Positions 10,348 through 46,062 of a stretch of DNA of 64,000 bases are shown here, one piece after another; within the stretch, counting starts at the first letter, position 1; each line of letters begins with the position of its first letter. This DNA is from an uncultured Clostridia bacterium. Lineage in GTDB: Bacteria > Bacillota > Clostridia > Oscillospirales > UBA644. Under the pieces are notes generated by a model. It made no database searches. It had not been told where the DNA came from and was given only the letters and a program-made list of their open reading frames with translations. Made by a program: the position numbers and the translations under genes. Location of the stretch: NCBI GenBank assembly GCA_948443805.1, contig CAOJUB010000001.1:241487-305486 (forward strand), in the 5' to 3' direction.

Positions 10348-12954
10348 TTATTGGATTTCTTCTACCGTGAGGTTTTTCGGAATGTCGCAGCGTTTTGAAT
10401 TGCATGCAAGGGTCGTTTCTGCGCTGCCTGAAAGGTCTTCCGTTACGTAATCACCTTCAATCGCTGCGAAATCTTTGGCGGATTCAATCAGATTTCCGGT
10501 GAACAGGATATGGCCGCCGTCTGCGGCGATGTGGTTTTCCGGAACCGAGTAAAAGAGATTGGCGCCAACGGAAAGATTCCCTCCGGACACGGTAAAGGCC
10601 GCTGAAACCGGGCTACGGAACACCGACGTCTGAATCTCTGCTTTTCCGGCGTTCATGGCCCAATAGGTTTTTTCGCCTTCTTCTCCGGAAAATACGGTGT
10701 TGGCAACAACGACCGTGCCGCTGTTCGATTTTTCTGTTGTCAGGCAGCTTCCGGCCTGTGCTTTGAGGGTGATATGCAGGTTGGAAAGCAGCGCCGTTGT
10801 GGTATTTTCAATGGTTACAGCGCTTTCCACACCGGAAAGAAACAGCCCTGCGGCTGCTGCTGTCGGCTTCCCGGAATTTGACGTGGTCTGTCCCGAAAGG
10901 GAAAGGCCGGTTTGCGCCAATGATACGGAATTGGAAAACATCCGGAGATTTTCTCCGCCGTAGCTGTAGATTGCCGTTTGCGTGTTTGGATTTTGTCCGT
11001 CCTGCGGCAGGAAATTGCAGTTTTTTATCAGGATATCCGAAGAGTTGATTGCCGCAACGCCGAACTGGGAAACCTGAGCCGTGCAGTTTTTTATCATTGC
11101 GCCGGTATGATTTTCCAGATAAATGCCGCCTCCGAAACCGGATATTTCGGTGTTTTTCAGCCGGAAACCGGAAGAATCTCTGCCGACCCGGACGGCATAG
11201 TCAGGATATCCGTCCATGTCTTCCGCCGATTGGCAGACTAGTTTGATTCCGGTAATCTGCGAGCCTTTTTCTGCGAGAATTGCTGCCGATTTCTCCGCAT
11301 CGGCATTACGGAAAGAGAATACGGTAGCATAAGCGGAACCGTTTCCCTGTCCTACGCCGCAGAGCGCAACATTCGGTTTTAATTGAACGGCTTCCGGATC
11401 GAAATAGTATTCGCCTTCCTGAATCAGAACCACGCCGCCTTTGGCTCCGAGCGAGTCGATGGCGCTTTGCAGCGCTGCATTGTTGCTTTCCGCATCGGCC
11501 GACAGACCGAAGTCTTTGGCGTAAACGGCGCTGGCGGCTGCCGGCGCCGTTCTGTCAAGGAAGGAAAAATCTTCGGTTTTCTGCGGCGTCAGCGCGATTT
11601 CTTCCTGGCTGCTCTGCGCAAAGAAGTAGTCGGCGTTGGCGTAGGGGTCGCTGGCAAAGCGGTTGTTATAGAAAACGCCCAGCGCCGGGTTTTCAAAAAC
11701 GCCGACGATTTCTTGATTCGAAAAGGTGTTGTTCATGGCTGCCACAACGCCGTCGGTCAGATGAAAGGCGCCCTTTCTCCAGCTGGAAACCGTACAGTTG
11801 GCAAAGGACATGTCGCCGGTTCCGGCAGAGACAAAACATTCATAGGTTCGGTTCGGAAAAGTGCAGGTGTTAAAACAGATCTGCGTTTTGAAATTTTCTC
11901 CCGCGCGGACAATACTGGAATCCATCAATCCGGTCGAGCGCAGGTCGGAAAGATTGACCGCCATGCCGCCCTGGCCGAGACTTTCCACCGAAAAGACTTC
12001 AACGTTGTTGGCGGTGAAAAGCGAGGTAACCGAGAGAAGCCCCGGGGATTGCTGCGGAATGTTTGCCGCGATTCCTTTTCTTGCCGTGTCAATTTCTATA
12101 TTATAAAGCTGGGCGTCGGCAATATCGCCGAAAGCCATGGCGGTCAGATTTTCGGTAAGAAAGTCCGACACGCTGTTTGCGTCATAGTTTTCTTTTTTGT
12201 CTTTGGGTTTGTTGCTCCAGTATTTGGGGCTGATTTTTATCTTTTCCATGCGGAGCAGCCCACTGCAGCGGTCGATTTGAATGCCGGTTTGCAGGGCGGT
12301 GATATAAAGGTTTTCCAGCAGGGCGGAATCGCAGGATTCCTCTCCCAGCAAAATAGCCCGGTAACTGTTGACCAGTTCAAGATCGGTAAGCGAAACCGCT
12401 TCGGTTCCGTTCTGGGCGATGGTAAACGGATATTCCCGGATTTCGTTCGTATTCTGCGCCTGATATTGAATGGAAAGGCCGGAGATTCCCGCGCGGTTGC
12501 CGAGTGTGATCGCCGGGCTTTGCCGGAGGGCTTCGGTATCGGCAAGGATCAGCCGGGTTTTGGCGCCGGTTGGATTTTTTGCCGTAGGCGAGGTGAAGTC
12601 TCCCTTCAGCGTTACCTGGTCAGGTATGTGCAGCGGTGCCGTTATTTTGTAGCTGCCGCAGGGAATATATACGGTTCCTCCGCCGGCCTGTCCGGCTTTG
12701 TCTAGCGTCTTCTGGATGGCTGCGGTATCATCGCTTTTTCCGTTGGCCTTTGCGCCGTTTGCCGAAACGAAAAAGTTTGCGGCGAAGAATTCTTCCGAAT
12801 CGATTTCTTTCAGAAACACCGTGTTCCCGTCGGTCATTTCAATTCCTTTCCGTCCCGGAATTGTTTCCAGCGCCGGACTGCCGCAGGAGGAGAAAAACAT
12901 CATGACGGCAAGCAGGCAAGCCGCTGAACAGATTCTTTTTTTCACGTGGATCAC
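10348..12954 (-). CDS. Right-handed parallel beta-helix (pectate_lyase_3-like, duplicated) lipoprotein
   Basis: Lipoprotein signal ending FFSSC|G; two blocks of ADDTAAIQKTLDKAGQAGGGTVYIPCGSY / SNNAALQSAIDSLGAKGGVVLIQEGEYYF followed by beta-helix-like repeats. Confidence 0.8.
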   Translation of the reverse strand: MIHVKKRICSAACLLAVMMFFSSCGSPALETIPGRKGIEMTDGNTVFLKEIDSEEFFAANFFVSANGAKANGKSDDTAAIQKTLDKAGQAGGGTVYIPCGSYKITAPLHIPDQVTLKGDFTSPTAKNPTGAKTRLILADTEALRQSPAITLGNRAGISGLSIQYQAQNTNEIREYPFTIAQNGTEAVSLTDLELVNSYRAILLGEESCDSALLENLYITALQTGIQIDRCSGLLRMEKIKISPKYWSNKPKDKKENYDANSVSDFLTENLTAMAFGDIADAQLYNIEIDTARKGIAANIPQQSPGLLSVTSLFTANNVEVFSVESLGQGGMAVNLSDLRSTGLMDSSIVRAGENFKTQICFNTCTFPNRTYECFVSAGTGDMSFANCTVSSWRKGAFHLTDGVVAAMNNTFSNQEIVGVFENPALGVFYNNRFASDPYANADYFFAQSSQEEIALTPQKTEDFSFLDRTAPAAASAVYAKDFGLSADAESNNAALQSAIDSLGAKGGVVLIQEGEYYFDPEAVQLKPNVALCGVGQGNGSAYATVFSFRNADAEKSAAILAEKGSQITGIKLVCQSAEDMDGYPDYAVRVGRDSSGFRLKNTEISGFGGGIYLENHTGAMIKNCTAQVSQFGVAAINSSDILIKNCNFLPQDGQNPNTQTAIYSYGGENLRMFSNSVSLAQTGLSLSGQTTSNSGKPTAAAAGLFLSGVESAVTIENTTTALLSNLHITLKAQAGSCLTTEKSNSGTVVVANTVFSGEEGEKTYWAMNAGKAEIQTSVFRSPVSAAFTVSGGNLSVGANLFYSVPENHIAADGGHILFTGNLIESAKDFAAIEGDYVTEDLSGSAETTLACNSKRCDIPKNLTVEEIQ

Positions 12955-31584: not shown

Positions 31585-32742
31585 ATGACGTTTTTACTGG
31601 TTCTGATCTATCTTTCCTTTATCAGCCTGGGGTTGCCGGACTCGCTGCTTGGCAGCGCATGGCCGGTCATGTATGCCGATTTTTCAGCGCCGATCTCTTT
31701 TGCCGGCGCGATTGCTATGACGGTTTCGGTCGGGACGGTGGTGTCCAGTTTTTGGAGTTCTCGGCTGATTTCCTGGTTCGGTACAGCGAAGGTCACCGCT
31801 GTCAGCGTGGCGATGACAGGGCTTTCCCTGATCGGTTTTTCGTTCGCAGGACAAATCTGGCTGCTCTTTTTATTTGCCGTTCCTTTGGGGTTTGGCGCCG
31901 GTTCGGTTGATGCGGCCTTAAATAATTTTGTTGCGCTGCATTATAAGGCGAAGCATATGAACTGGCTGCACTGCTTCTGGGGGATCGGCGCGACTGCCGG
32001 TCCGGTGGTGATGGCTTTTTGGATCTCGGCCGGCAGCTGGCGCGGCGGTTACGGAACGGTCGCCCTGATTCAGTGTCTGCTCGCCGCGGTTCTGTTTGCA
32101 ACATTGCCTGCCTGGAAAAAGGTATCTTCTTTGCCCGGCGGGGCGGAAGAAAAACCGTTTCGGCATATCCCAGCGAATCAGATTCTGCAAATTCCGCTTG
32201 CCAAGCCGATGTTTGTTTCTCTTTTTTGCTATTGTGCGGTTGAAACCACCGTTGGTTTGTGGAGTGCGAGTTTTTCTTCGGTTCTTTACGGTGTTTCTCA
32301 GAAAATTGCCGCTTCCTATGCCGCCGCTTTTTATTTCGGCATTACGGCGGGGCGTGCGGCTGCCGGATTTCTTTCGGTAAAATGGGGCAATTTTCAGATG
32401 ATCCGTCTCGGTCAGGCGCTGATCGGCGCCGGGCTTCTGTTTTTGCTGGTTCCGGTTGGGCTTTGGCGGATTCCGGTGGGGTTGGTTCTGATTGGGCTTG
32501 GCTGTGCGCCGATTTATCCGGCGATGCTGCACCAGACGCCGAAAACATTCGGTGAAGAAAATTCGCAGGCTATGATGGGGATTCAGATGGCGAGCGCGTA
32601 TATCGGTTCTTCTCTGATGCCGCCGGTTTTCGGTTTTTTGTCTTCTTTTTTCAGTATGCGCCTTTTTCCTTTCTTTGTTGCGGTGGCGCTTCTTCTGATG
32701 ACGTTTTGCACCGAAATTGTCCGCCGCCGGACAGCAACTTGA
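31585..32742 (+). CDS. MFS transporter
   Basis: About 12 hydrophobic segments; ISLGLPDSLLGSAWPVMYADF...GFGAGSVDAALNNFVALHYKAKHMNWLHCFWGIGATAGP. Confidence 0.9.
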   Translation: MTFLLVLIYLSFISLGLPDSLLGSAWPVMYADFSAPISFAGAIAMTVSVGTVVSSFWSSRLISWFGTAKVTAVSVAMTGLSLIGFSFAGQIWLLFLFAVPLGFGAGSVDAALNNFVALHYKAKHMNWLHCFWGIGATAGPVVMAFWISAGSWRGGYGTVALIQCLLAAVLFATLPAWKKVSSLPGGAEEKPFRHIPANQILQIPLAKPMFVSLFCYCAVETTVGLWSASFSSVLYGVSQKIAASYAAAFYFGITAGRAAAGFLSVKWGNFQMIRLGQALIGAGLLFLLVPVGLWRIPVGLVLIGLGCAPIYPAMLHQTPKTFGEENSQAMMGIQMASAYIGSSLMPPVFGFLSSFFSMRLFPFFVAVALLLMTFCTEIVRRRTAT

Positions 32743-32767
32743 CATTTTTATACAGGAATGGTATAAT
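32739..32767 (+). promoter_or_regulatory. Promoter at the head of the repeat element upstream of the fucO-like gene
   Basis: TTGACA - 17 bp - TATAAT. Confidence 0.75.
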
Positions 32768-32990
32768 AAAAAACAGCAAGCTGTTCTTATGAAAAAAGCG
32801 TTTCAACCATCCGGTTGAAAATCCGTTCCGGATGCCCGCTTTTTTCTGGTGCGAAATTCATGTGGTATCATATACGCAGAATGTCTTGCAGCGCAAAACT
32901 TTGCGGCTTTGCCTCAGGAATGAATCACCGCATAAAAATGCCTCTGCAAGCATTTTTGCTTATAATAATCAAGAACAGCAAGCTTTTTCT
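32761..32990 (+). repeat. Interspersed modular repeat, copy 1 (hairpin, three-helix cloverleaf type I, GGTGCGAAATTCATG block, inverted-repeat tail)
   Basis: Shares AACAGCAAGCTGTTCTT, GTTTCAACC-N4-GGTTGAAAATCCG-N3-CGGAT, CGCTTTTTTCTGGTGCGAAATTC, ATACGCAGAA and GGCTTTGCC with 40.80-41.28 kb. Confidence 0.85.
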
Positions 32991-33061: not shown

Positions 33062-34210
33062 ATGGCAAACAGATTTGTACTCAACGAAACTTCTTATCAC
33101 GGCGCCGGGGCGATCGGTTCGATTCCCGACGAGATCAAAGCCCGGGGCTTTCAGAAGGTTTTTGTCGCCTCTGATCCGGATCTGATCAAATTCGGCGTGA
33201 CGAAAAAAGTGACGGATCTTCTGGAACAGGCCGGGATTTCCTATGAACTGTTTTCTGAGATCAAGGCGAACCCCACAATCGCCAATGTCAAAGCCGGCGT
33301 TTCTGCTTTTCAGGCCTGCGGTGCGGACTGTATTGTGGCTATTGGCGGCGGTTCGTCGATGGATACGGCGAAGGCTGTTGGCATTATTGTAACCAACCCG
33401 GAATTTGCCGATGTCGTCAGTCTGGAAGGGGTTGCGCCGACAAAAAATCCGGCTGTGCCGATTATTGCAGTCCCCACTACCGCCGGAACGGCTGCGGAAG
33501 TTACCATTAACTATGTTATTACCGATGAAGAAAAAAACCGGAAAATGGTTTGCGTGGATGTTCATGATATTCCGGTCATCGCCGTGGTGGATCCCGATAT
33601 GATGGCGACGATGCCCAAAGGTCTTACCGCCGCGACCGGTATGGATGCGCTTACACACGCGATTGAGGGTTATATTACAAAAGGGGCTTGGGCTCTTTCG
33701 GATATGTTCCATTTGGAGGCCATCCGGATCATTGCCAAAAATCTTCGCGGCGCGGTCGCCAATACGCCGGAAGGGCGCGAAGGCATGGCTCTCGGTCAGT
33801 ATGTCGCCGGTATGGGCTTTTCCAATGTCGGGCTGGGTATCGTTCATTCAATGGCGCATCCGCTCGGCGCGCTCTATGATACGCCGCATGGCGTAGCTAA
33901 TGCGATTATTCTGCCGACGGTGATGGAATACAATGCGCCGGAAACCGGGGATAAATATAAATATATCGCGCAGGCTATGGGGGTAGAAGGAACCGAGGCC
34001 ATGTCGGTGGAAGAATACCGGAAAGCCGCAGTCGATGCTGTCAGACAGCTTTCTGCCGACGTCGGTATTCCGGCCGATCTGAAAGAAATCGTCAAGGAAG
34101 AGGATATTCCTTTCCTTTCCCAGTCGGCGTACGACGATGCCTGCCGTCCGGGGAATCCGAGAGATACCAGTGTAGAAGAGATTTCCGAGCTGTATCGTTC
34201 TCTTCTGTAA
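33062..34210 (+). CDS. fucO: Iron-containing alcohol dehydrogenase, lactaldehyde reductase-like
   Basis: MANRFVLNETSYHGAGAIGSIPDEIKARGFQKVFVASDPDLIKFGV...AIGGGSSMDTAKAVGII...GLGIVHSMAHPLGALYDTPHGVANAI. Confidence 0.85.
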   Translation: MANRFVLNETSYHGAGAIGSIPDEIKARGFQKVFVASDPDLIKFGVTKKVTDLLEQAGISYELFSEIKANPTIANVKAGVSAFQACGADCIVAIGGGSSMDTAKAVGIIVTNPEFADVVSLEGVAPTKNPAVPIIAVPTTAGTAAEVTINYVITDEEKNRKMVCVDVHDIPVIAVVDPDMMATMPKGLTAATGMDALTHAIEGYITKGAWALSDMFHLEAIRIIAKNLRGAVANTPEGREGMALGQYVAGMGFSNVGLGIVHSMAHPLGALYDTPHGVANAIILPTVMEYNAPETGDKYKYIAQAMGVEGTEAMSVEEYRKAAVDAVRQLSADVGIPADLKEIVKEEDIPFLSQSAYDDACRPGNPRDTSVEEISELYRSLL

Positions 34211-34274: not shown

Positions 34275-34397
34275 TTATAAATATTTAGGTTTCTTTGTTT
34301 TGTAACATAAAAATTCGGAAAAATTCATGTTTTTGTGTTACCCTTAATCATCAAATAGTTTTCTATAAAAGATATGATTTTGAAACGGGGTGTTTTT

Positions 34398-35315
34398 TTG
34401 TTTACCGCCGATTCGATAAAAAAAGATTTGGCTTCTTCACGCCGTAAAAAAGTGATTCTTGACAGTGATGCGTTTAATGAAATCGACGATCAGTATGCCA
34501 TCGTTCATCTTTTGACTTCACCTGGCCAGTGCGACTTGCTGGGGATTTGTGCTACGCCTTATTTGAATGACCGGAGCGTTTCGGCTGCGGACGGGGAAAG
34601 AAAAAGCTATGATGAGATTGTTAAGCTTTTATCCTTGACGTGTGAAAATACGGAATTGCCGGTTCTGCACGGCTCGGCAAATTTTTTATCCGACCGTTAT
34701 ACGCCAGAACCTTCTGAAGCGGCCGATTGGATGATTCAGACCGTCAAGAAATATCCGGAGGAACCGGTTTATATTGTGGCGCTGGGGGCAATCACCAATG
34801 TGGCATCGGCTTTTTTGAAAGCGCCGGAGATTCGCGAAAATACGGTTGTTATCTGGCTTGGCGCCAACCTTCCCGAAGTGGGAAAAAATATCGATGAATT
34901 TAATCTTCGTGAAGATATTTCGGCCGGTCAGGTATTGTTTGACAGCGGCGCGGTCATTGTTCTTCTGCCGATGGCAGTGACGGCGAATGTGTATATCGCG
35001 CAGACCGAAATGAAAGATTTTCTGCAGCGGTCTTCGCTTCCGGTTTGTTCTTATCTGCATGAGGAATGGTGCGGCTATATGGGGGAAGAGGCGCACGGAA
35101 AGGTGATCTGGGATCTTGCCGGGTCGGGCGCTGCCGCTGTTCCCGGATGTTGCCGTTTTGAGATTCTTCCCACCCCTGCGCTCGGTGATGATTCCGAATA
35201 TGTGCGGCGGGAAACCGAAAACCAGATGCTGATGCTCCGCGAAATCGACGCGCCGCGTATTTTTTCTGATTTATTCGGTAAAATGGAACAGGCGGTCCGG
35301 AGGTATTCCAAATAG
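34398..35315 (+). CDS. Nucleoside hydrolase family protein (paralog 1)
   Basis: KKVILDSDAFNEIDDQYAIVHLL...VYIVALGAITNVASAFLKAPEI...VVIWLGANLPEVGKNIDEFNLREDISAGQVLFDSG. Confidence 0.85.
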   Translation: MFTADSIKKDLASSRRKKVILDSDAFNEIDDQYAIVHLLTSPGQCDLLGICATPYLNDRSVSAADGERKSYDEIVKLLSLTCENTELPVLHGSANFLSDRYTPEPSEAADWMIQTVKKYPEEPVYIVALGAITNVASAFLKAPEIRENTVVIWLGANLPEVGKNIDEFNLREDISAGQVLFDSGAVIVLLPMAVTANVYIAQTEMKDFLQRSSLPVCSYLHEEWCGYMGEEAHGKVIWDLAGSGAAAVPGCCRFEILPTPALGDDSEYVRRETENQMLMLREIDAPRIFSDLFGKMEQAVRRYSK

Positions 35316-35342
35316 AAAGGCTGAAAAGAAAGGGTTTTTATT

Positions 35343-36260
35343 ATGTATTCGATAGAAAAAGTTCTGGCGGATCTTCGTTCGGAACGGAAGAAAAAGGTTA
35401 TTATTGATTCTGATACCTATAATGAAATCGATGATCAGTTTGCCATTGCGCATCTGATGCAGACGCAGGACCGGGTAGAGATTTGCGGTATGACTGCGGC
35501 GCCGTTTTATAATTGGCGAAGTGATTCGTTCGGCGATGGCGCGAGACGAAGCTTTGAAGAGATGATTAAGATCCGGTCGCTGGTCGATCCGTTTTCCGAA
35601 ATTCCGGTTCGGATGGGGTCGGCTTGCCAGATGCCGGATATCAGAACCGCAGTTTCGTCTCCGGCCGCAGATTTTATCATCGAGACGGCCAGAATGATGA
35701 CGGACGAACCGCTGTATCTTTTAGGTATCGGCGCGCCGACGAATATTGCATCGGCTTTGGTGAAAGCACCGGATATTATTGATAAAGTGGTTGTCGTCTG
35801 GCTTGGCGGCAATGAAGTGAAGCTGGAAAGCAATGCCGGAGAATTTAATATGGATCAGGATTTCAATGCAACGCGGGTTCTTTTTGAAAGCGATGTTGCG
35901 TTGGTGCAGTATCCTGCCAATTGCGTGACCTCCACGCTTTGGATCAACGAAAATACCATGCGGGAGGAACTGACGGCGGGAGAGAATCCGCTCTGCTCCT
36001 ATCTGCACCGTTTTTTCCTCTGGCTCAAGGGCGAAAAGGAAAATTACGGCCGGATTATCTGGGATATTGCCGGAAGCGGATGCTTTACCGTGCCGGAGGC
36101 TACGACCTTTTTGATTCAGGAAAAACCGGCGCTTCATCCGCAGGATTATACCTATGATTTTTCATCCTGCGGCGGAAAAAAGATGATATATGCCGATGCA
36201 ATTGATCCGCATGGTATTATCCGGGATATGTTTGAAAGGATCAAAAAGATCGGAAAATGA
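35343..36260 (+). CDS. Nucleoside hydrolase family protein (paralog 2)
   Basis: KKVIIDSDTYNEIDDQFAIAHLM...LYLLGIGAPTNIASALVKAPDIIDKVVVVWLGGNEVKLESNAGEFNMDQDFNATRVLFESD; collinear with paralog 1. Confidence 0.86.
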   Translation: MYSIEKVLADLRSERKKKVIIDSDTYNEIDDQFAIAHLMQTQDRVEICGMTAAPFYNWRSDSFGDGARRSFEEMIKIRSLVDPFSEIPVRMGSACQMPDIRTAVSSPAADFIIETARMMTDEPLYLLGIGAPTNIASALVKAPDIIDKVVVVWLGGNEVKLESNAGEFNMDQDFNATRVLFESDVALVQYPANCVTSTLWINENTMREELTAGENPLCSYLHRFFLWLKGEKENYGRIIWDIAGSGCFTVPEATTFLIQEKPALHPQDYTYDFSSCGGKKMIYADAIDPHGIIRDMFERIKKIGK

Positions 36261-40645: not shown

Positions 40646-40779
40646 AGATAATCCCCTTTTTTATGGCCGGGCGCTTTGGCTTGCCGGGCTTAACTTTTTA
40701 AGCGTTTTTGTTGATTTATTTATAGTATATCATAGATCTTCCTATATAGCAAATACTTATATGTAATAATGATCCATGC

Positions 40780-40808
40780 TTGAAAGTTATGGATTGTTGT
40801 GGTATAAT
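40780..40808 (+). promoter_or_regulatory. Promoter at the head of the repeat array
   Basis: TTGAAA - 17 bp - TATAAT, immediately followed by AAAGAACAACAAGTTGTTCTT. Confidence 0.65.
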
Positions 40809-41278
40809 AAAGAACAACAAGTTGTTCTTGGGAAAAACATCTTTCGGCTATCCAGCCGAACAGCGCGTTGTGCTGCCGGTGTTTTTCCGGTGCGAAATTC
40901 ATGGTATAATATACGCAGAAAGCCTTGCATAGCAAGACTTTGTGGCTTTGCCACTCCGTGCGGAGCACGGCTGCGATATTGAATCATGTCGCAAAGAACG
41001 CCAATGCAAACACTATTTGCATGCAAGCAAACATTTTTGCTTCATGGTATAAAAAGAACAGTAAACTGTTCTTGGAAAAAAACGTTTCAACCGTTCGGTT
41101 GAAAATCCGTTTCGGATAACCGCTTTTTTCTGGTGCGAAAATTCGGGGATAGAAAAAGAACAACACCTTTCGGCTATCCAGCCGAACAGCGCGCTGCGCC
41201 GCCGGTGTTTTTCCGGTGCAAAATTCATGGAAAGAAAAAGAACAACAAGCTGTTCTTTAGAACAGTAAACTGTTCTTA
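40801..41278 (+). repeat. Interspersed modular repeat array (three further cloverleaf copies, several AAGAACA..TGTTCTT hairpins)
   Basis: Cloverleaf type II at 40833-40886, type I at 41076-41129, type II at 41159-41212, each followed by (C/T)GGTGC(G/A)AAATTC or close variant. Confidence 0.85.
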
Positions 41279-41313
41279 TAAAAATTCAAGAGATAATAAA
41301 TGGAGGAAAATTG

Positions 41314-42207
41314 ATGGAACTCAGAGTTTTACAGTATTTTCTCGCCGTGACAAGAGAACAGAGTATTTCGGGGGCGGCTGCGTCTCTCTACCTTTCACAG
41401 CCGACGCTTTCCCGGCAGTTGAAGGAACTGGAGGAGGAACTCGGCAAGCAGCTGATAATTCGCGGCAACCGCCGTGTTACGCTGACCGAAGAAGGAATGA
41501 TTCTTCGCAAAAGGGCGGAAGAAATTCTGGAACTTGTTCAAAAGGCAGAAGAGGAAATCTCCAGAGCAGAGGAGACAGTTGCCGGCGAGATTACCGTTGG
41601 TGCGGGAGAAACCGACGGTATGCGGTTTTTGGTCAAGGCCATGCACTCGTTGCAGCAAGAATATCCGCTGGTACATTTCCATGTTTTCAGCGGCGATAAA
41701 GCAACGATTATCGAACAATTGGACCGGGGCCTGATTGATTTTGGCCTTGTTTTCGGTGCTGTTGATGAGGCCAGGTATGAGGAAATTACCATTCCCTATC
41801 AAGATACCTGGGGTGTTTTTATGCGCCGGGATTCTCCTCTAGCAGAAAAAGCAACAATTACGGCGGAAGATTTGATGGATAAACCGCTGATTTTTTCCCG
41901 GCAGGCGTTTCGGAATCAGGAATTCCGGAAATTTTTTCCCTGCGGCCAGGAGTCGTTGAATATTGTCGCTACTTATAATTTGCTGTTTAATGGTTCGCTG
42001 ATGGTAGAGGAGGGCATGGGGTATGCCGTCAGTTTTGATAAAATTATCAATCTGTCGGGCAACCGGGCGCTGTGTTTCCGGCCGTTGGAACCGTCGTTGA
42101 AGGCCAATATGCATGTTATTTGGAAAAAATATCAGGTGATTACCAAAGCGGCGGAAAAGTTTCTCCGAAAATTGCAGGAGAATCTTGAAAGCGCTGCCGA
42201 ATCGTGA
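41314..42207 (+). CDS. LysR family transcriptional regulator
   Basis: MELRVLQYFLAVTREQSISGAAASLYLSQPTLSRQLKELEEELGKQLIIRGNRRVTLTEEG plus substrate-binding domain. Confidence 0.95.
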   Translation: MELRVLQYFLAVTREQSISGAAASLYLSQPTLSRQLKELEEELGKQLIIRGNRRVTLTEEGMILRKRAEEILELVQKAEEEISRAEETVAGEITVGAGETDGMRFLVKAMHSLQQEYPLVHFHVFSGDKATIIEQLDRGLIDFGLVFGAVDEARYEEITIPYQDTWGVFMRRDSPLAEKATITAEDLMDKPLIFSRQAFRNQEFRKFFPCGQESLNIVATYNLLFNGSLMVEEGMGYAVSFDKIINLSGNRALCFRPLEPSLKANMHVIWKKYQVITKAAEKFLRKLQENLESAAES

Positions 42208-44285: not shown

Positions 44286-45983
44286 TTATTCGGTCAGCGG
44301 TTCTCCGCTGATAGCGGGGTCGCCGAACGGCTCGGTAAAGCCAAGCATTTTTGCGATGACTTTGGGAATCGCCGTGTTGTCTACGGTAGCTCCGTTGAAT
44401 ATTTCGGTTCCGAGGCCGTAACCGATTACCGGAACGTCCGCGCCGGTATGTTTGCCTCCTGAGGTAAACTGGTAAGTTCCCATCTTGGTCAGGCCGCCGG
44501 TTTCATGGTCGGCTGTAATAATCATCATCGTGTCGGGGTGATACATGGCGAATTCCATGAATTTGATAATTGCCATGTTTCCTCTCGCCATCGCCCAGTA
44601 AGTTTCGTTTCTCATGCTCTGGTGAGAATTTTTATCGATGTGCGCTTCTTCATACATCATGAAAAAGCCTTTTTCGTTATCCGCCGTGAGGGAGGAAAGC
44701 GTATTTTCTATCGTGGTCAGGAAATAGTTGTCGCCAAAGCCGCAGCGGAGAATATCGATGGTTCCGTCGGCGAGCATCTGATCCTGCATGGTTTTGATGT
44801 CTTCTGCCATTCCTCTGTCCAGAACATGGGCGGAGAATGCGGACGGCGTTGCGCCGGTTTGTGTATCGGTGGAAAGAACGGCGGTTTTGTATCCGAGGCC
44901 ATGCGCCAGTTCGGAAAGATTGGTCAGAACCGTTTTACCGTCCGGCGCCAGGCCAACGTAATGGTTGTTGGTTTTATAACCGGTAGCGAGCGCTGTTCCG
45001 CCTGCCGCGCTGTCGGTTACTTCATTGTCTGCCGAACGGGTTTTTGCTAAGCCTTGGTTGGGGAAACGGTATCCGGCGAAGGTGTGTTGCATAAGGATAT
45101 ATTCGTTTTCCACCAGAGGCAGGTTGCTTCCGAGCAGTTTCGGATGATTCTGCCCCATACCGTCGCCGATAAAGTAAATGAAATTTTTCGGTGTTTCCGG
45201 TGTGGGTTCTTCCACGATCCCCTCGTCCGGGATATCGATTTCTGCCGCTTCATTTCCGGCAATCAGCGTATTGACAAAGTAATAGGCCGCACCGGCGATA
45301 AGGAAATCCTTACCGGAAAGGAGGACGTCTTCCTCATTTGCCGAAATCCCGAATTTCATCCCTGTCAATTCGCTGTTGTTATATTCTTTTGCAATCACTC
45401 TGGACGTGCTGCCGATGACAATTTCACTGCCGGTGTCTTCGGTTGCATCAGTGATAACGGTAAGCCGCGTTCCGGTCAGTTTTTCAATTTCATCATTAAT
45501 ATAATCTGCCGCATTTTCCGCAAGCTGATTCGGAAGGTCAACGCCTTTGAATTTGTCGGCATCCAGCAGAATATTTCCATTCCGATTTGTTTTGTCGTAT
45601 AGTGACAGCGTTGTGGCCGGGATAACGATTTTATATTCTGTGATCGGCTTTCCTTCCAGCGTCAGGCTGGCAGGCAGAACGATTTCTTCTCCGATCCGAA
45701 CGCCGGTCAGCGACCACTTGGCAAGGTATCTTTTGAGCAGAACCGCATCGGTGCTGTTGAATTTTTGGTCATTATTGATATCTGCGGCGTTTTCCGCAAA
45801 AGTTTTAATCTCCCATTTCGCCAGTTTTCTTGCCATGAGAACTGCGTCGGTCGAGTTGATTTTTCCATCGACGTTCACATCTCCGTAACGCGGAACAACG
45901 GGTGTTTCTGTTTCCGCAGAAACAGGAATGGCGAAGAGGGAAACCAGCATGGCTAAAATTAAGATGAGAGCTGTTTTTTTCAT
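44286..45983 (-). CDS. Secreted alkaline phosphatase with N-terminal dockerin
   Basis: Signal peptide; GDVNVDGKINSTDAVLMARKLAKW...ADINNDQKFNSTDAVLLKRYLAKW dockerin; IYFIGDGMGQNHPKLLGS...TDSAAGGTALATGYKT...ITADHETGGL alkaline phosphatase motifs. Confidence 0.9.
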   Translation of the reverse strand: MKKTALILILAMLVSLFAIPVSAETETPVVPRYGDVNVDGKINSTDAVLMARKLAKWEIKTFAENAADINNDQKFNSTDAVLLKRYLAKWSLTGVRIGEEIVLPASLTLEGKPITEYKIVIPATTLSLYDKTNRNGNILLDADKFKGVDLPNQLAENAADYINDEIEKLTGTRLTVITDATEDTGSEIVIGSTSRVIAKEYNNSELTGMKFGISANEEDVLLSGKDFLIAGAAYYFVNTLIAGNEAAEIDIPDEGIVEEPTPETPKNFIYFIGDGMGQNHPKLLGSNLPLVENEYILMQHTFAGYRFPNQGLAKTRSADNEVTDSAAGGTALATGYKTNNHYVGLAPDGKTVLTNLSELAHGLGYKTAVLSTDTQTGATPSAFSAHVLDRGMAEDIKTMQDQMLADGTIDILRCGFGDNYFLTTIENTLSSLTADNEKGFFMMYEEAHIDKNSHQSMRNETYWAMARGNMAIIKFMEFAMYHPDTMMIITADHETGGLTKMGTYQFTSGGKHTGADVPVIGYGLGTEIFNGATVDNTAIPKVIAKMLGFTEPFGDPAISGEPLTE

Positions 45984-46062
45984 TTTTTCCTCCTTAGTGT
46001 CGGTAACGACAACATGAAAACGCATCTTTTCCGGTTGGGAATCTGCGTTTTTTACTCAGGGT

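Follow-up and report, generated by a model that had tools for sequence, protein, structure and literature searches.

A lineage-specific family of cloverleaf-folding repeats with a strong statistical tie to sigma-A promoters in a Clostridia-type genome

Repeats and genes in the window

The window, that is, the whole 64-kb stretch of DNA analysed (C1:241487-305486), belongs to a Clostridia-type host genome of 1.81 Mb in 35 contigs that is 98.9% complete. It carries four copies of a cloverleaf-forming repeat, A at one site and B, C and D in an array (Table 1), and the positions given for them in the original prediction are correct. The window also holds two adjoining nucleoside hydrolase genes followed by queH (34374-36260, +) and a gene for an alkaline phosphatase that carries a type I dockerin domain (44286-46025, -), an unusual combination that could be a cellulosome-type component.

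The fold proposed for the copies, two hairpins (P2 and P3) closed by an outer stem (P1), is exact in A and B, whose RNA folds have z = -4.6 and z = -4.0, with 0/200 shuffles equally stable. It is reproduced less completely in the other two: the outer stem of D is shortened (z = -2.6), and the minimum-energy fold of C keeps P2 and P3 but loses the outer stem because of an A.C mismatch (z = -1.8). A small correction applies to P3 of copy D: CAGCGC-GCT-GCGCCG holds an A.C mismatch. The 54-bp core originally described is real, but it is just part of a unit of about 105 bp that also includes the -10-like TGGTATAATA, a 20-bp palindrome and a GGTGCRAAATTC tail.

Table 1. Positions of repeat modules, promoters and downstream genes in the window
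Feature	Position	Strand	Remarks
Copy A promoter	32739..32767	+	TTGACA 32739-32744 in unique flank, 17-bp spacer, TATAAT 32762-32767 forming the first part of the repeat; 12/12 consensus matches
Copy A 20-bp palindrome P0	32769..32788	+	AAAAACAGCAAGCTGTTCTT
Copy A type I cloverleaf	32791..32846	+	P1 10 bp (32791-32800/32837-32846), P2, P3
Copy A conserved tail	32848..32859	+	GGTGCGAAATTC
Degraded M3 copy 3' of copy A	32863..32955	+	TGGTATCATATACGCAG...; 32863-32913 aligned
Iron-containing alcohol dehydrogenase gene	33062..34210	+	Downstream of copy A, same strand
B-C-D array promoter	40780..40808	+	TTGAAA 40780-40785, 17-bp spacer, TATAAT 40803-40808
Copy B palindrome P0	40810..40829	+	AAGAACAACAAGTTGTTCTT
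Copy B type II cloverleaf	40832..40887	+	
Copy B tail	40889..40900	+	GGTGCGAAATTC, then ATGGTATAATA
Module M3	40902..41043	+	TGGTATA on either side; cassette of unrelated sequence that folds as a four-way junction (three hairpins with 3-nt loops) followed by two more hairpins
Copy C unit	41044..41146	+	ATGGTATAAA; P0 at 41054-41073, then a type I cloverleaf (about 41075-41130) and the tail
Copy D type II cloverleaf	41158..41213	+	Preceded by no complete P0; in tandem with C
Copy D tail	41215..41226	+	GGTGCAAAATTC
Two solo P0 palindromes closing the B-C-D array	41238..41278	+	
LysR-type regulator gene	41311..42207	+	Downstream of B-C-D array, same strand

A modular family found in one of the genomes searched

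The host genome contains dozens of matches to copy A, and a covariance model made from 28 copies recovered about 45 copies at E < 1e-9 on many contigs, so that the further copies expected by the original prediction do exist. By crude ORF calls they lie mostly between ORFs. The unit reads ATGGTATAATA, P0, cloverleaf, tail GGTGCRAAATTC and then ATGGTATAATA again, P0 being a 20-bp palindrome of the form AAGAACAGC-AA-GCTGTTCTT. Units occur singly or as tandem repeats spaced about 105 bp apart (C7:50301/50405; C3:74683/74788/74892), some copies are degraded, and solo P0 palindromes end several arrays (8/40 by a strict pattern). The many near-identical, dispersed, intergenic copies are those of an interspersed repeat or MITE, and the composite of P0, cloverleaf, M3 modules, tandem units and solo P0 has the variable module number, fixed order and stable fold of a BOX-like repeat.

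Some arrays depart from this plan. Three tandem units precede ispD (L127:3184-3497; C3:74683-74996), where the inner units have lost the -10 (TCGCAACA) and a promoter stands at the first unit only. In variant units (L112:1-72, at the start of C14, and L124:2540-2585) P0 and the GTGCAAAATTCATGG tail are separated by a simple hairpin in place of the cloverleaf, or the cloverleaf is absent.

Between copies B and C lies M3 (40902-41043), a module whose sequence is unrelated to the cloverleaf and which has 16 matches in the genome; its four-way junction with three 3-nt-loop hairpins has a fold z of -3.5. Family members include L097:2661-2801, L176:1501-1625, and L115:2285-2410 and 10401-10560. At least four subtypes (M3, M3b, M3c and M3d) differ in their stems while pairing is kept in 91% of cells, with double changes in 6 pairs.

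In keeping with the original remark that no known family was recognised, a comparison of the 64-kb window with Rfam (4227 families, gathering cut-off) yielded a tRNA only, and nothing credible appeared in 40700-41320 at E <= 5. A search of related genomes had also been proposed, and here the outcome was negative: model R1 had no true match in 58 relatives, 19 of them of the same family, or in a further 396 genomes from the order, and model R2, which gave weight to the fold shared by types I-IV, had none in 98 relatives, its weak matches being terminators or chance. Phages and plasmids gave no blastn match to the cloverleaf repeat, and exact patterns matched sequences other than the element in genome and viral contig collections. 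The few weak matches elsewhere were discarded as coding sequence, ordinary terminators or chance. Finally, a search of the open-access literature returned no repeat family tied to promoters or start sites.

The repeats begin at the -10 box

The position of the repeats at the promoter -10, which the original prediction had missed, is the main new finding. For each of the 26 array starts whose left flank is unique, we looked for a TTGACA-like hexamer upstream of the TATAAT in the element. With exactly 17 bp between the two, 20/26 flanks matched at four or more of six positions, 16/26 at five or more, and 7/26 held a perfect TTGACA; the background is about 1 per 26 (binomial P about 3e-22). Other spacings gave none (16 bp), one (18 bp) or between 0 and 4 flanks. 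The -35 lies outside the repeat and the TATAAT within its start, and the 26 flanks are otherwise unrelated, with one exception described below. The promoter at copy A is a perfect TTGACA-17-TATAAT with an extended -10. A few intact copies (L118, L105) have no visible promoter at their position.

M3 obeys the same rule. In unique flanks (L097, L099, L110 and L111) its start is likewise TGGTATAATA, preceded by a -35 at the 17-bp spacing, and at C4:102421-102574 it is flanked by TGGTATAATA on both sides. The exception among the flanks is a pair of loci that share a homologous promoter of 37 bp (34/37 identical, through TGGTATAATA), one followed by M3c and the other by a type II unit, which diverge exactly after TGGTATAATA. 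Many copies, a fixed junction behind -35 and -10, and unrelated cassettes at that same junction are matters of observation, and the cloverleaf repeats are a real, new, lineage-specific structured family whose tie to sigma-A promoters is unusual and strong statistically.

Could the repeat bring its own extended -10, insert anywhere, and be kept only where a -35-like hexamer happens to lie, or is later acquired, 17 bp away? ATGG precedes TATAAT at nearly all copies and at few native promoters of the host genome, as such a history would have it, and other MITEs, such as Correia elements, carry promoters (PMC10969869). Yet seven perfect TTGACA hexamers and 16 of at least five matches among 26 flanks are excessive for capture from random sites, M3 has the same junction despite its different interior, and native TGGTATAATA promoters without an insert exist. 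We regard this account as highly doubtful. TGGTATAATA occurs 49 times in the genome, compared with 6 for the reversed pattern, and by inspection about a third of these occurrences are native promoters without an insert.

At the other end of the repeat, an extended -10 is present in 14/40 copies, and 29/39 copies have a gene downstream on the same strand (P = 0.003, crude ORF calls). By Pfam, the downstream genes encode a PyrH-like kinase, IspD, MgtE, DegV, VanY, ApbE, a PALP enzyme, Fe-ADH and LysR, among others; these functions are unrelated, and a regulon or riboswitch with a common downstream function was rejected. A terminator scan picked out the P3 hairpin of copy B and also, when the antisense strand was read, P2 with a T-run after it; an intrinsic terminator on the sense strand of the cloverleaf is possible.

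Conserved pairing and its causes

The original prediction distinguished two stem sequence types, and we found at least four (I, II, III and IV). Its central observation, that pairing is kept across types within one fixed geometry, was borne out: all four share P1 of 10 bp, P2 of 7 bp with a 4-nt loop and P3 of 5-6 bp with a 3-nt loop. Type III (L131:2810-2881) has P1 GAAGAATG.., P2 TTCGGTT-CTTC-AACCGAA and P3 CAACGT-TTT-GCGTTG, and type IV (L109:2782-2853) has P2 TTCGGTC-AAAA-GACCGAA and P3 CGGCAT-GCA-ATGCCG, so that they have the geometry of the other types in common with them but not the stem sequences. The type III region spans L131:2756-2881; that of type IV (L109:2767-2926) is a tandem array breaking off at a contig end (C17).

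In the alignment of 28 copies, standard pairs fill 94.3% of cells; shifting the partner by 1-3 columns lowers this to 31-55%. Both sides are changed in 64 cells, compared with 17.7 in shuffles. Among 50 matches, whose alignment is fitted to the model, double changes affect 25/30 pairs, with 164 both-side cells as against 59 in shuffles. The cloverleaf structure is far beyond chance. Within type I, divergence is 8% at paired sites compared with 22% at unpaired ones, and compensated doubles number 31 where 8.75 are expected. Single-side changes give G.U about as frequently as A.C, with 17 against 14 in type I and 8 of each in type II.

These figures had been taken to point to selection on RNA or single-stranded DNA structure, which does not follow directly from covariation. 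Since G.U and A.C are equally frequent, there is no sense-strand RNA signature and the covariation is no proof of RNA function; RNA-specific selection acting through wobble pairs was set aside on this ground, and a sense RNA alone would not seem to account for the constraint on the stems. Moreover, template-switch repair of palindromes can yield the same pattern of paired changes (PMC8794818).

It may be, then, that template switching during replication perfects quasi-palindromes and makes paired changes in one step, with no selection for structure. This is a published mechanism, it agrees with equal numbers of G.U and A.C intermediates, and every module has simple short-loop hairpins. It is less expected to preserve stem lengths, 4-nt and 3-nt loops and the junction over four types with wholly different stems, or to make the long-range outer stem P1 covary as well, and it leaves the promoter position unexplained. 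It is a serious rival account of how the pairs change; we find it rather improbable.

Alternatively, the cloverleaf could be a functional structured RNA, a cis-regulatory leader or sRNA family with its own promoters that is selected in many transcription units and binds a ligand or protein or attenuates transcription. The compensatory changes and lower divergence at paired sites in type I are what such a function would leave behind, the copies lie in sense orientation upstream of genes, and their good promoters imply transcription. Against it stand the lack of preference for G.U over A.C, the absence of a shared function among downstream genes, the occupation of the same position by unrelated cassettes, the confinement of copies to one genome, and the tandem and degraded copies; furthermore, P0 overlaps the expected start site, so its 5' arm would be partly untranscribed. 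This reading is not favoured, and we consider it unlikely.

Ends of the element and candidate enzymes

As judged by inspection, the repeat has no terminal inverted repeats: its left AAGAACAGC and right GAAATTCATG ends are not complementary. TGGTATAATA flanks many units on both sides, and the left and right -10 variants (for example TAGAAT/TAGAAT and TAAAAT/TAAAAT) agree slightly more often than when shuffled, a weak effect (P = 0.037).

The host genome gave 0 matches to the Y1 (HUH) transposase family PF01797, for which control genomes were positive, and 0 matches to the reverse transcriptase family PF00078; REP/RAYT mobility and a retro-mechanism driven by a resident enzyme were discarded accordingly. 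The tyrosine recombinase family (PF00589) is represented by a single full-length open frame and by a fragment at the end of a contig. The fragment (L218; C10:279-440, -), which has an internal stop, is the sole hint we found of a lost mobile element.

A non-autonomous element of IS200/IS605 type (PATE or REPIN-like), mobilised in single-stranded form by a Y1 transposase cutting after TGGTATAATA, would have subterminal hairpins and no inverted repeats, a fixed orientation behind a short target with the left target resembling the right end, and a conserved single-strand fold, all of which are seen here. No Y1 transposase is present in the 98.9% complete host genome, however, and an autonomous copy was not found, which makes this origin quite unlikely.

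Discussion

Our results lead us to regard copies A-D as, on balance, probably members of a lineage-specific, dispersed, non-autonomous BOX/MITE-like repeat that sits at sigma-A promoters in the form of TGGTATAATA-bounded cassettes. Several observations weigh against this reading: no empty site was found in the host genome, the only one of its genus analysed, terminal inverted repeats and Y1 or reverse transcriptase genes are absent, tyrosine recombinases amount to one full-length frame and one fragment, the agreement of left and right -10 variants is weak, a few intact copies have no visible promoter, and covariation above shuffles fits a functional RNA as well.

If the repeats are cassettes of this kind, folded non-coding sequences would insert in the sense direction into existing promoters, at the -10 box, leaving TGGTATAATA on either side. 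The event could be site-specific or target-specific at TGGTATAATA, which would be duplicated or reused, and a single-strand fold, of either a DNA strand or RNA, may be needed during copying. The promoter would be older than the insert. The native promoter might now transcribe P0 and the cloverleaf as a leader, and we think that the repeat is probably transcribed in this way. A second, extended -10 recreated at the right end may sustain expression of the gene, and antisense transcription may stop at P2 and the T-run. Most cloverleaf copies are probably neutral relics by now. More tentatively, one can imagine a system targeting the -10 of active sigma-A promoters, in which a recombinase puts unrelated folded cassettes (cloverleaf I-IV, M3 and solo palindromes) in sense-wise at TGGTATAATA, perhaps into the single-stranded -10 of open complexes; this is possible, but we would not call it likely.

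Small structured repeats are common in bacteria. What sets these apart is that arrays start on the -10 with the -35 outside at a fixed 17 bp, which suggests an insertion mechanism that reads promoters or is coupled to transcription. One lineage would in this way have acquired a folded leader before dozens of unrelated genes at once, and the effect of such a leader would be directly testable. The case is also a caution that a functional RNA need not lie behind strong covariation seen within one genome.

Among known systems, integrons hold tandem, unrelated cassettes behind a promoter, bounded by one short repeat (attC) whose single-strand fold is conserved over its sequence. The cloverleaf and M3 cassettes are likewise tandem, unrelated, placed behind a promoter and bounded by a short repeat, with fold conserved more than sequence, but they are without genes and scattered over the genome, and no integron integrase was identified among the two tyrosine recombinase matches. 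Correia elements and other promoter-carrying MITEs (PMC10969869) are also small, dispersed, close upstream of genes and a source of promoter sequence. Terminal inverted repeats and small target duplications are typical of MITEs, whereas the cloverleaf repeats have no inverted repeats and at most a putative duplication, and their -35 stands at a fixed 17 bp beyond the element. REPINs (REP-RAYT) and IS200/IS605 derivatives, which are thought to move as single-stranded DNA (PMC3116915), resemble our repeats in being palindromic, hairpin-forming and extragenic with a short left target, but the present host lacks a Y1/RAYT gene and its units are co-directional and tied to promoters.

BOX of Streptococcus pneumoniae (PMC3049150) is similar in many respects: its repeats are short (about 100 bp), intergenic and modular, with modules in tandem and strong folding as RNA; it is restricted to one lineage, has no transposase of its own and is transcribed with genes. 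The cloverleaf repeats differ from it in fold, and nothing similar to their sequence turned up in the genome, phage, plasmid and viral collections searched. Pneumococcal small repeats are mainly placed where little harm is done, and BOX, RUP and SPRITE occur more often than expected between convergent genes (PMC3049150); the cloverleaf repeats take up the opposite position, upstream of genes and at the -10 box.
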